NCBI GenBank assembly: GCA_021738385.1
Contig: JAIPCF010000009.1
Coordinates: 1 to 57,242, forward strand
Direction: 5' to 3'
Origin: Sulfuritalea sp.
GTDB taxonomy: Bacteria > Pseudomonadota > Gammaproteobacteria > Burkholderiales > Rhodocyclaceae
DNA length: 57,242 bases
The position numbers were made by a program, and so were the translations under genes. The notes under the pieces are model-generated. The model saw only the letters and a program-made list of their open reading frames with translations, did no database searches and had not been told where the DNA came from. Positions 224 to 56,165 of this stretch are shown one piece after another. The stretch's first letter is position 1, and every line of letters begins with the position of its first letter.

Positions 224-769
224 TTATAAACCCTTGACCGCGTAGACGGCCGGCAAATTGCGCCAGGCTCCCTTGACGTCCATGCCATAACCAAAGACAT
301 AACGATTGGGCACCTGCACCCCGACGAAATCGGCATCTATCGGTTTCGCCCGACCCAGCTCCTTGTTGGCGAATACCGCGCTCAACACCTCCTTTGCCCC
401 CTGCTCCTTCAGGCGCCGGGATATTTCGGCCAGCGTAATTCCTTCGTCGAGAATGTCGTCCACCACCAGGACAATACGGCCCGCAACCGCGGCACGAGGC
501 TCGACGATCCACTCCAGCTTGCCACCCGTCGTCACATCTCCATAGCGGGTCACGTGCAGGTAATCAAAATCCAGCGGGAAAACCAGTTGCGGCAATAGCT
601 GACCGGTGAATACCACAGCACCTCCCATCACCGCCAGCACCAGCGGATTGGTACCGGCGAGTCGGGCGGTGATTTCATCAGCAACTCGCCGTGTTGCCAG
701 CGCCGAGTTTTCCGCGGTGCAAATCAAATCCGCGTCTTTAAGGATATTGCTTGCTTCCTCCGGACTCAT
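224..769 (-). CDS. hpt: Hypoxanthine-guanine phosphoribosyltransferase
   Basis: 181-residue type I phosphoribosyltransferase that would salvage hypoxanthine or guanine with PRPP to make IMP or GMP in the cytoplasm. The PRPP-binding loop [15 protein letters not shown] is seen around residues 99-113 and is preceded by the hydrophobic beta strand [15 protein letters not shown]. Length is normal for the family. The ATG at 769 overlaps the stop of galU (ATGA), so the two genes are probably translationally coupled. Residues near 20-27 (ENSALATR) are encoded by a stretch resembling the 24-bp dispersed repeat described elsewhere. A xanthine-preferring paralogue cannot be excluded. Confidence 0.88.
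688..711 (+). repeat. Probable copy of the 24-bp dispersed repeat, inside hpt
   Basis: Three mismatches to the consensus (left half GCCGTATCGCCA, right half GCGCCGACTTTT). It lies antisense to hpt and encodes NSALATR on the gene strand, the same frame as the copy at the end of srkA. It is one of the weaker copies because the protein region may simply be conserved there. Confidence 0.45.
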
Positions 770-1632
770 GACATCCTCTTCAGCATGGCGGCAAACTGCT
801 GACCGACTTCAGGATGGCGCAGGCCAAAAGCCACCGTCGCCTCAAGATAGCCCAGCTTGGCGCCACAGTCGTAACGCGTACCCGTATAACGGTAGGCCAG
901 TACCTTCTCTTCCGCCAGCAAGGCGGCAATGCCATCGGTCAATTGAATCTCGCCACCCGTGCCTTGGCCGACATGTGCGAGATGATGAAAAATACGCGGT
1001 GTCAATACATAGCGGCCAACCACGGCCAGAGTCGATGGTGCGTTCTCGGGCTCGGGCTTTTCGACAATCCGCTGAATGTTTTCCAGGGCATCAGCCATCG
1101 GCGTGCTGTCGACGATGCCGTAGCTTCGGGTCTCTTCACGCGGCACCTGCTGCACTCCGATCACAGAACTCTGGTACTTGTCATAGACATCCACCATCTG
1201 TTTCATGATCGGTGGATCGCCATCGAGCAGATCGTCGGCCAGCAACACGGCAAAGGGCTCATCGCCCACGGCCGGATAGGCGCAGAGCACCGCATGACCC
1301 AAACCCAGGGCCTCCGGTTGGCGAATGTAAATGCAGTTGATGTTTTTCGGCAGCAGGTTCTGGACAAATTCAAGCAACTCGGTTTTGCCGCGATGGGCAA
1401 GCTCACTTTCCAGCTCATAGGCTTTGTCGAAATGATCCTCGATGGCGCGCTTGGAACGGCCAGTCACAAAAATCATGTCGGTGATGCCGGCGGCAACGGC
1501 CTCCTCCACCGCATACTGAATCAGCGGCTTGTCCACAATGGGCATCATTTCCTTGGGGCTGGCCTTGGTCGCCGGCAGAAAGCGGGTGCCGAGACCGGCG
1601 ACTGGAAACACGGCTTTGGTAACTTTTTTCAT
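766..1632 (-). CDS. galU: UTP--glucose-1-phosphate uridylyltransferase
   Basis: 288-residue cytoplasmic nucleotidyltransferase making UDP-glucose from UTP and glucose-1-phosphate for envelope polysaccharides. The N-terminus has the family signature [20 protein letters not shown] (residues 11-30), and later blocks [12 protein letters not shown] and [13 protein letters not shown] are typical of bacterial GalU. The ATG at 1632 overlaps the ligA stop by four bases, and the gene's own stop overlaps the start of hpt. It therefore sits in a tight ligA-galU-hpt series downstream of smc and zipA. Length matches the family. Confidence 0.95.
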
Positions 1633-3713
1633 TGTTCCAACAACTCCCTAAATTGCTTTTCGTCGAGGATCGTAACGCCCAATCCCTGCGCTTTGTCGAG
1701 CTTGCTTCCGGCCTCGGCACCCGCCACCACATAGTCGGTTTTCTTCGACACCGAACCGGCAACCTTGCCGCCCAGCGCTTCGATCATGTCTTTTGCTTCA
1801 TCGCGCGTCAGTGTCGGCAGTGTGCCGGTCAGGACAAAAGTTTTGCCGGTGATGAACGAACTCACGCTCTCCATCGGAGCGCCTTCGGGCCAGCTCACGC
1901 CGCCAGCGCGCAGTTGTTCGATCACCTCGATATTGTGCGGCTCGGCAAAAAAGCGGACGACGGAGGACGCCACGATCGGGCCAACGTCGGGCACTTGTTG
2001 CAGGTGATCGCTGTCGGCGGCCATGAGTCCATCCAGACTTCCGAAGTGACGAGCCAGATCCTTCGCCGTCGCTTCTCCTACATTGCGTATCCCCAAGGCG
2101 AAAATGAAACGCGCCAGCGTCGTAGTTTTGCTTTTTTCTATTGCAGCGAGAATATTTCCCGCCGATTTTTCAGCCATGCGTTCGAGATTGACGATAGCCA
2201 GCAAGCCCATCTTGTAGAGGTCGGCCGGCGTCTTGATTATGGCGTTGTCGACCAGTTGTTCGACCAGTTTGTCACCCAGACCCTCGATGTCCATGGCGCG
2301 CCGACTGGCGAAATGCAACAAAGCCTGTTTTCGTTGCGCGGGGCAAAACAGACCACCGGTACAGCGGGCAATCGCTTCATCTTCCGGCCGCTCAATGGCG
2401 GAACCGCAGACGGGGCAGGCTTTCGGTAACTCGAAGGCCGGATGCATGCCCCCCCCGTCGGCCTGGTCGGTTCCAGGGCGCTTCTCCATGACTACCGAAA
2501 CAACTTCCGGAATCACGTCGCCAGCGCGCCGCACGATGACGGTATCACCAACCCGCACGTCTTTTCTGCGCGCTTCGGCTTCATTGTGCAGGGTAGCGTT
2601 GGTTACCGTCACGCCACCGACAAACACTGGTGCCAGCCGCGCCACCGGCGTTATGGCTCCAGTGCGCCCGACCTGAACCTCGATCGCTTCCACTGTTGTC
2701 AAGGCTTCCTCGGCCGGATATTTGTGCGCCACCGCCCATCGGGGCTCCCGCGTGACGAAACCGAGGCGCTGTTGCAAGGCCAGCGAATTCACTTTGTACA
2801 CCACGCCATCGATATCAAAGGACAGCTCGTCGCGCATCGCTCGAATTCGGGCGTGAAAGTCGATCAAGCCGTCGGCTCCCTTTACGACGGCACGATGCTC
2901 ACAGACGGGTAGACCGAACTCGGCAAGCGCATCGAGCACGCCGCTATGGGTTACCGGCAATTTCCAGCCAATGCACTCGCCCAGACCGTAGGCAAAAAAG
3001 GACAGTGGGCGCTCGGCCGCCACTGCCGGATCGAGCTGACGAATGCTGCCGGCCGCGCCGTTGCGCGGATTCACGAGGGTCGCTCGCCCCAGGTCTCTTT
3101 GCCTTGCGTTGTAGCGCTCGAAATCGGGGCGACTGATGAAAACCTCGCCACGCACTTCAAGCAGCGCTGGTGCAACCCCACTCAAATGCAAAGGAATGCG
3201 ACGTACGGTACGAATGTTTTGCGTGACGTCCTCACCCGTTTCGCCATCGCCTCGCGTCGCTGCGCGTACCAGCAATCCGCTTTCGTAGCGCAGGCTGATG
3301 GCCAGGCCATCGAACTTCAGCTCCACGGCATATTCAATTGCGGCATCAGCGTCGTTCAATTCCAGCTCGCGTCGAACCCGACCGTCAAAAGCCCGAGCGC
3401 CGCTCGCCTCGGTATCGGTCTCAGTGCGTATTGACAGCATCGGCACACCATGACGCACCGGAGAAAACTCCGGCAGCGGTTTGCCGCCGACTCTTTGTGT
3501 GGGCGAATCCGCGCTATTCAGCTGCGGATGCTCAAGCTCCAGTGCCCGCAACTCGCGAAATAGCCGGTCATACTCGGCGTCGGGAATGGTCGGCGCGTCG
3601 AGCACGTAGTAGGCGTGGTCGTGTTGCTCAATTTCTTGGCGCAGCGCCGCTACGCGTTGTGCCGGTTCCATTGCCGGCTTTGCTGACTCGGCCGACTGTG
3701 CCGGCAAGGACAT
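1629..3713 (-). CDS. ligA: NAD+-dependent DNA ligase
   Basis: 694-residue ligase that seals nicks during replication and repair using NAD+. Visible domains in order are the N-terminal Ia domain ([19 protein letters not shown]), the adenylation domain with the lysine motif ELKFDGLA near residue 130, an OB fold with [19 protein letters not shown], a four-cysteine zinc finger (CPVCG, then CTGGLFC, near 420-445), helix-hairpin-helix repeats and a C-terminal BRCT domain ([20 protein letters not shown]). The start codon overlaps the stop of the zipA-like gene as TGATG. Length and domain set are standard. Confidence 0.97.
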
Positions 3714-56094: not shown

Positions 56095-56121
56095 CAAGGC
56101 CGGCCAGCCGGCCTTGTTTTT
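56095..56121 (+). terminator. Rho-independent terminator after the ribbon-helix-helix gene
   Basis: Stem CAAGGCCGGC/GCCGGCCTTG with a two-base apex (CA) in the sequence, effectively a larger loop after fraying, followed by TTTTT. Located just after the stop at 56090. Confidence 0.88.
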
Positions 56122-56141
56122 ACCGGAATCTGATCCCGGCC

Positions 56142-56165
56142 GCCGTATCGCCATCGCCGACTTTC
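56142..56165 (+). repeat. 24-bp dispersed repeat upstream of prfC
   Basis: Two mismatches: left half GCCGTATCGCCA exact, right half TCGCCGACTTTC. Intergenic, between the terminator and the prfC -10 element; the repeat ends just before the -35 position. Confidence 0.82.

Follow-up and report, generated by a model that had tools for sequence, protein, structure and literature searches.

The window, that is, the entire 57,242-nucleotide stretch analyzed here (contig JAIPCF010000009.1 of the Sulfuritalea sp. assembly GCA_021738385.1), encompasses smc, dnaX, an ABC-F gene resembling uup, an ABC transporter ATPase gene, and a gene of the APH family, and both these genes and the gaps between genes are dotted with copies of a 24-base word, a candidate DNA uptake sequence, which is the subject of this work (Table 1). 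The strict form of the word is GCCGTATCGCCAGCGCCGACTTTT; its form in the genus Sulfuritalea is approximately TCGCCGTNNCGCCRGCGCCGACTYTY, and a relaxed word was scored beside the strict one. Given up to 3 mismatches to GCCGTATCGCCAGCGCCGACTTTT, there are 9 matches in the window compared to none in 100 dinucleotide shuffles; with as many as 6 mismatches allowed, the count is 12 against a shuffle mean of 0.08. All 11 copies listed in a preliminary description of this DNA are present at the positions and on the strands assigned to them, and a twelfth, within smc (5910-5933), was absent from that list. Because 12 matches stand against 0.08 in the shuffles, the two copies that had been considered less certain (34135 and 39478) are in all likelihood genuine; the orthologues found for them are at 0 to 4 relaxed mismatches. 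It had also been estimated that a 12-base half of the word would be expected once in 17 million bases, a figure that presupposes even base composition and an exact match. With up to 2 mismatches, the half-word was found 25 times versus 6.9 expected, so that the case rests on the full 24-mer. Two other statements of the preliminary description hold: the word is not a palindrome, since a single copy lacks inverted (dyad) symmetry, and shared protein function does not explain the copies, given that the word is read in all six reading frames.

Table 1. Copies of the 24-base word in the window, with their genomic context (ORF, open reading frame; aa, amino acids)
Positions	Strand	Context	Mismatches	Orthologous positions
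688-711	+	Within mechanical ORF 224-769 (-), gene unassigned	3 strict, 2 relaxed	
5910-5933	+	Within smc, 4993-8601 (-), SMC_N by Pfam	6 strict, 2 relaxed	
9165-9188	-	Outside ORFs of ≥100 aa, between smc and the PTA_PTB/MaoC gene (Pfam) at 9319	3	
18061-18084	+	ABC-F (uup-like) gene 17817-19730 (-), two ABC_tran and ABC_tran_CTD domains	1	
19390-19413	+	Second copy in the uup-like gene 17817-19730 (-)	3	
31981-32004	-	dnaX, 31564-33225 (-), DNA_pol3 gamma/tau domains	3	
32020-32043	-	Second dnaX copy, in tandem with that at 31981, 15-base spacing	2	
34135-34158	+	Outside ORFs of ≥100 aa	5 strict, 3 relaxed	Word in 2/2 orthologues found (0 and 2 relaxed mismatches)
39478-39501	+	3' end of APH-family gene (Pfam; srkA-like), 39476-40480 (-)	6 strict, 3 relaxed	One orthologue, at 4
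47911-47934	+	ABC transporter ATPase gene 47340-48050 (-), lolD in the preliminary description; encodes KVGAGDT just before Walker A	1	Word in 8/10 orthologues, absent in 2
49668-49691	+	ORF 49335-50333 (+), without a Pfam family at E of 1e-5	1	Word in 6/6 orthologues found (1-2 relaxed mismatches)
56142-56165	+	Outside ORFs of ≥100 aa	2	Sole orthologue found carries the word at 0

The word is abundant well beyond the window. A search of the whole source assembly (G000; 3.34 Mb in 162 contigs, 82% complete), as the preliminary description had suggested, recovered the word 476 times with no more than 3 mismatches (258 copies on the forward and 218 on the reverse strand), and the word read backwards yielded 0 + 0. 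At the same threshold, all 30 of 30 further genomes sampled from the genus contain the word, with 12 to 467 copies each. It also emerges without prior knowledge: in 800 kb of G002, a genome of the same genus assembled as one contig of 3,802,648 bases, the top over-represented 10-mer is AGTCGGCGCT, with 115 occurrences versus 6.6 expected under a fourth-order model.

To delineate the distribution of the word among relatives, 395 genomes of the family, including the source genome, were surveyed with the relaxed word, allowing as many as 2 mismatches. The dense set, with 236 to 724 copies each, consists of 55 genomes from six genera (g1, 22/23 genomes; g43, 18/19; g88, 9/9; g70, 4/4; g32, 1/1; and g62, 1/1). 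Intermediate counts, 41 to 67 copies, were found in G098, G076, and G016 only, and the other 337 genomes have 17 copies or fewer each. In a survey of the order (399 genomes, up to 1 mismatch), any copy at all was detected in 21 of the 386 genomes outside the family, with a maximum of 5. Two loci labelled Rugosibacter (L086 and L087) each carry 7 sites in 22 kb, with 1 and 0 sites in the respective reversed controls.

In the word-poor genomes, the few copies tend to cluster (G180, contig C1, 1.67-2.01 Mb; G108, C50; G047, C29; G436, C3). For example, 7 of the 9 copies in G180 lie inside 0.34 Mb of a 4.3-Mb genome, and 4 of the 6 copies in G108 lie inside 12 kb. Such clusters could reflect import from a word-bearing donor or misbinning of metagenome-assembled genomes. 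In a collection of viral sequences, the exact GCCGTNNCGCCAGCGCCGACTTTT is found in 90 stretches, mostly as a single copy; among the 80 stretches listed (L341-L420), 6 have two copies. These stretches may represent either viruses of the clade or flanking host DNA.

Conservation begins about two bases 5' of the 24-mer and extends to its end, and the form of the word differs between lineages. In the source genome (50 sites), A or G is preferred at the sixth and ninth bases and TTTT at the end, although many of these sites come from loci picked for a close match, which makes the resulting logo too clean. In G002 (144 sites), the sixth and seventh bases are free, and C or T occurs near the end. G098 uses the form GCGTCGACTTTT, which occurs there 241 times with 3 mismatches or fewer, and the top 10-mers of that genome are of this form as well; in G061, GCACCGACTTTT is found alongside GCGCCGACTTTT. 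Thus, the forms in G000, G002, G061, and G098 are lineage dialects that share a conserved part.

One member of the genus appears to have been caught in the process of losing the word. The G016 genome (99% complete) contains only 41 relaxed copies. At positions that bear the word elsewhere in the genus, the G016 sequence is 4 mismatches off in 15 of 29 alignments and at 0 in another 2, compared to 0 to 1 mismatches in 16 of 20 alignments to G000 and 17 of 22 to G002 in the same test; several of the G016 alignments share a position, so that the independent places number about half as many. The mismatch spectrum of G016 rises evenly and is not two-humped. Read from these alignments, the copies in G016 have decayed in place, and something that upholds the copies seems to have been lost in this lineage. 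The spectrum of G293, the sole g43 genome without the word, is at background. Between genera, the positions of the sites change: few alignments were obtained to G072, G099, and G061, with 2 to 12 mismatches.

The placement of the word on the chromosome was examined in forty 20-kb stretches spaced round G002, which contain 132 sites at up to 5 mismatches, with 0 in the reversed control. Relaxed-word sites number 3.88 per 20 kb on average, with a variance of 4.32, and the chromosome quarters do not differ significantly (P = 0.35). Clustering near the origin of replication was considered and rejected, the even sampling having found sites also at 1.36-3.0 Mb. The overall strand split of the G002 sites is 46:31. 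Relative to replication, 77 sites are split 40:37 (P = 0.82), and relative to transcription, sites in genes are split 48:55, that is, neither shows a bias.

These features bear on two alternative interpretations. The word could be the site of a protein that organizes, segregates, or replicates the chromosome and needs many sites, which would be born by mutation and kept by selection; a site for a nucleoid or segregation protein was among the natures put forward in the preliminary description. Such a role fits the spread round the chromosome, the conservation of the word above that of its flanks, and its absence outside some genera. We nevertheless regard it as unlikely because there is no replication-strand bias, no regional clustering, no significant difference between chromosome quarters, and no dyad symmetry; furthermore, the dialects and, on few alignments, the shift of positions between genera speak against it, and the decay in G016 together with the absence from G293 would require the loss of a chromosomal protein. 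A recombination hotspot of the Chi kind, or a word spread by intracellular biased gene conversion, has a smaller chance still of being correct. Chi and KOPS (FtsK-orienting polar sequences) are genome-wide over-represented words that are read by a protein, and a Chi-like word would, like this one, be dispersed, substitution-born, and split into lineage dialects. However, Chi-type words show an orientation to replication, and a replication-oriented word of either type is contradicted by the strand split given above; moreover, known Chi words are far shorter than the ~24 conserved positions observed here.

Sites were next assigned to genes and gaps with a custom gene caller, under which a random 24-mer is genic 85% of the time. 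Of the 155 sites assigned, 103 are genic, 50 fall into gaps, and 2 are located on edges, such that gaps are used at about twice the expectation (P = 9e-8). All six reading frames are employed, the commonest encoded peptides being VGAGDTA (41), AVSPAPTF (24), and RRIASADF (20). Gaps between converging genes are overused, with 16 of the 46 gap sites that are flanked by genes on both sides, compared to 18% by length (P = 0.005). The 377 sites include 12 close pairs, 9 of which are distinct once overlapping loci are removed: in 5, among them the dnaX pair of the window, both copies share a strand, and in 4 the copies are on opposite strands (3 in G002 and 1 in the source genome, where the close pairs are mostly tandem). 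Two of the opposite-strand pairs of G002 are tight, with perfect arms and loops of 3 to 4 bases; they lie between converging genes and have folding energies of -56 to -61 kcal/mol (z of -11 to -13). The strong folding of these pairs, the overuse of converging-gene gaps, and the TTTT at the end of the word are what a family of transcription terminators or RNA elements would predict. This possibility appears remote, however, because two-thirds of the assigned sites are genic, on either strand, and only 4 of the 9 distinct close pairs are opposite-strand, 2 of these being tight.

How the copies arose was addressed by comparing orthologous positions. Starting from 366 sites that match the relaxed word with no more than 4 mismatches, 517 alignments through the site were obtained, at 86 sites. 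The other genome carries the word in 136 alignments, is 5 to 8 mismatches off in 105, is more than 8 off without a change of length in 183, and differs in length in 93; length differences amount to 18.0% of the alignments at sites compared to 14.8% at random positions. Where the word is kept in both genomes, identity is 90% at the site and 74% in the flanks; where the other genome is more than 8 mismatches off, the respective values are 62% and 72%. Beyond two bases outside the word, there is little conservation. A clean 24-bp insertion, a footprint that the preliminary description had proposed to look for, was not observed in any of the 517 alignments (0 with at least 18 of the 24 bases missing). 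Counted per site, a word-less orthologue that aligns ungapped exists for 31 of the 86 sites, and a clean deletion for none. For example, LolD relatives without the word have the same length at this position, with, for instance, LDIARGER or LELLPGER in its place, and the region is gap-free in the 30 alignment rows listed. Given the lack of a clean gap in the 517 alignments and the gap-free LolD, most copies are, on the evidence of these alignments, carved out of existing sequence, mainly by base substitutions. REP (repetitive extragenic palindromic) sequences, RPE (Rickettsia palindromic elements), and other mini-elements also occur as many dispersed copies in genes and gaps; unlike REP and RPE, the word leaves no insertion footprints, and a single copy has no inverted symmetry. 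Hence, a 24-base mobile mini-element inserted in genes and gaps, another of the natures initially proposed, is contradicted and can be practically dismissed: it would account for the dispersal, the high copy number, and a local excess of losses (14 of 517 alignments lack 18 or more bases no further than 15 bases from the site, compared to 1 of 1,884 random positions) but not for word-less orthologues that align through the site ungapped, the absence of gaps spanning the word itself, or the scarcity of conservation past two bases outside it.

The systems that the word resembles most closely in this comparison are the DNA uptake sequences (DUS) of Neisseriaceae and the uptake signal sequences (USS) of Pasteurellaceae, and, as far as the account in PMC12616744 extends, such sequences are known from these two bacterial families only. 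As described in PMC3630211 and PMC12616744, the DUS, which is recognized by the minor pilin ComP, is, like the word, abundant, differentiated into dialects, located in genes and gaps, and missing from some congeners or relatives. The DUS also occurs as inverted pairs in gaps, of which the word has two tight ones, in G002. The USS, according to PMC1939737, is likewise dispersed in genes and gaps, is thought to be born by point mutation, and shows no orientation bias; an extended USS of 17 positions is also in use, as mentioned in PMC12616744. In its letters, the word is distinct from both. It has ~24 to 26 conserved bases compared to 9 to 12 in the DUS. The Neisseriaceae DUS is GCCGTCTGAA, the start of which resembles, by eye, the first block of the word, GCCGT(CT). 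The CTG core, however, is absent in register, the eighth base of the word being C, not G, in 94-95% of the copies. The GCGG core of the USS (AAGTGCGGT or ACAAGCGGT) is absent from the word consensus, the only likeness, again by eye, being the AAAGT start of the reverse strand of the word, and the Pasteurellaceae belong to another bacterial class. As the cores differ, the word belongs neither to the Neisseriaceae DUS nor to the Pasteurellaceae USS.

Taken together, the abundance of the word, its restriction to some genera, its dialects, its origin by point mutation, its excess in gaps, its lack of orientation, and some hairpin-forming pairs match what the DUS and USS papers describe, which makes the same mechanism the simplest explanation; its tolerance in genes and its decay in one genome were observed as well. 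Among the three natures initially envisaged, an uptake signal is thus the one best supported by comparison. Accordingly, the word is probably an independent DNA uptake sequence of a part of the Rhodocyclaceae that includes the Sulfuritalea group, and by analogy with the known systems, we infer that it is recognized at uptake by a surface receptor. It is also reasonably likely that this is a third, independently evolved uptake-sequence system, with a word of ~24 to 26 bases (compared to the 9 to 12 cited for the two known families), its own dialects, and one lineage caught losing the word. Under this scenario, the word in free DNA would be bound by a surface receptor that belongs to the competence apparatus and is probably a type IV minor pilin, such that DNA of the same lineage would be preferentially taken up. 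Recombination into the chromosome would then favor alleles that carry or approach the word, and point mutations would let copies accumulate in all genes and gaps where they are tolerated. A change in the receptor would cause the word to drift into a dialect, and once recognition is lost, the copies would decay.

Several observations weigh against an uptake sequence. The word is longer than the DUS or USS, and its density is lower; DUS cases involve some thousands of copies per genome, according to PMC3630211. Tight inverted pairs number only 2 among the 377 sites, both in G002. The excess of losses next to the word also counts against it and qualifies the origin by point mutation; at least 8 of the 14 cases come from one site, L086:12063. 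Furthermore, the competence genes examined do not track the word: ComEC was found in all 30 genomes tested, PilQ in all 18, and DprA in 17 of 18 (all but G004), alike with and without the word, and both G016 and G293 retain all three. The presence of comEC in the window, initially taken as a hint of uptake, therefore lends no support by itself. The ComEA model scored over the cut-off in 2 of 18 genomes, with nothing detected in G002 and G076. A search of the open-licence PMC literature yielded no report of an uptake sequence, natural transformation, or competence for Sulfuritalea, Rhodocyclaceae, or Rhodocyclales, where only work on Ralstonia came up; nor was a description of the word found there, the papers matching its motif letters being unrelated as judged by title and the opening of the abstract, and the listed papers on S. 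hydrogenivorans genomes and on recent uptake sequences not dealing with it by title.

The search for a receptor points in the same direction. In contrast to the DUS, for which ComP is the receptor, no receptor was found for the word. The ComP_DUS pilin was rejected as a candidate because, irrespective of whether they carry the word, 22 of 24 genomes have it, and because it was not found in the word-bearing G098; the tree of the ComP_DUS family does not follow the word either. Another pilin (G002, C1:3148900) seemed linked to the word among seven genomes, yet it occurs in 332 of the 395 family genomes. Among the pilins compared in these seven genomes, no receptor tracking the word was identified, in a comparison that lacked some pilin genes lost at extraction and did not extend to loci of G034 and G073.

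PilQ scores against its model fall into a clearly lower range (319-384 bits in G000, G002, G004, G017, G016, G061, G091, G117, G098, and G099) and a higher one (451-523 bits in G072, G132, G177, G293, G076, G034, G073, and G097). The score does not track the word, g43 having both the word and high scores.

If the word is indeed an uptake sequence, the two known cases would be joined by a third of separate origin, with an unrelated and longer word, so that a comparative series would be available. Why uptake words evolve, be it for sex, for food, or as a by-product of receptor bias, could then be tested in a new lineage, for which natural experiments are at hand in the 55 dense genomes, in the dialects, and in the decayed genome. 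On a practical note, addition of the word to DNA could then help to transform these bacteria.

Other repeats were encountered in the same regions. In the source genome (L019, 1501-2600), copies of the word adjoin palindromes of the type GTCATTCCCGCG..GCGGGAAT and CATGCCGGG..CCCGGCATG, a second class of repeats in gaps. Within the window, a 32-base inverted repeat (39362-39450, 94% complementary, 25 bases between the arms) adjoins the copy at 39478, and one of its arms holds GCCGTGTCGCCG, which resembles the first half of the word. Finally, a 108-base direct repeat (22574-22928) lies within the mechanical ORF 22486-23151 (+); a 31-base reference occurs in it four times, at 71-100%.

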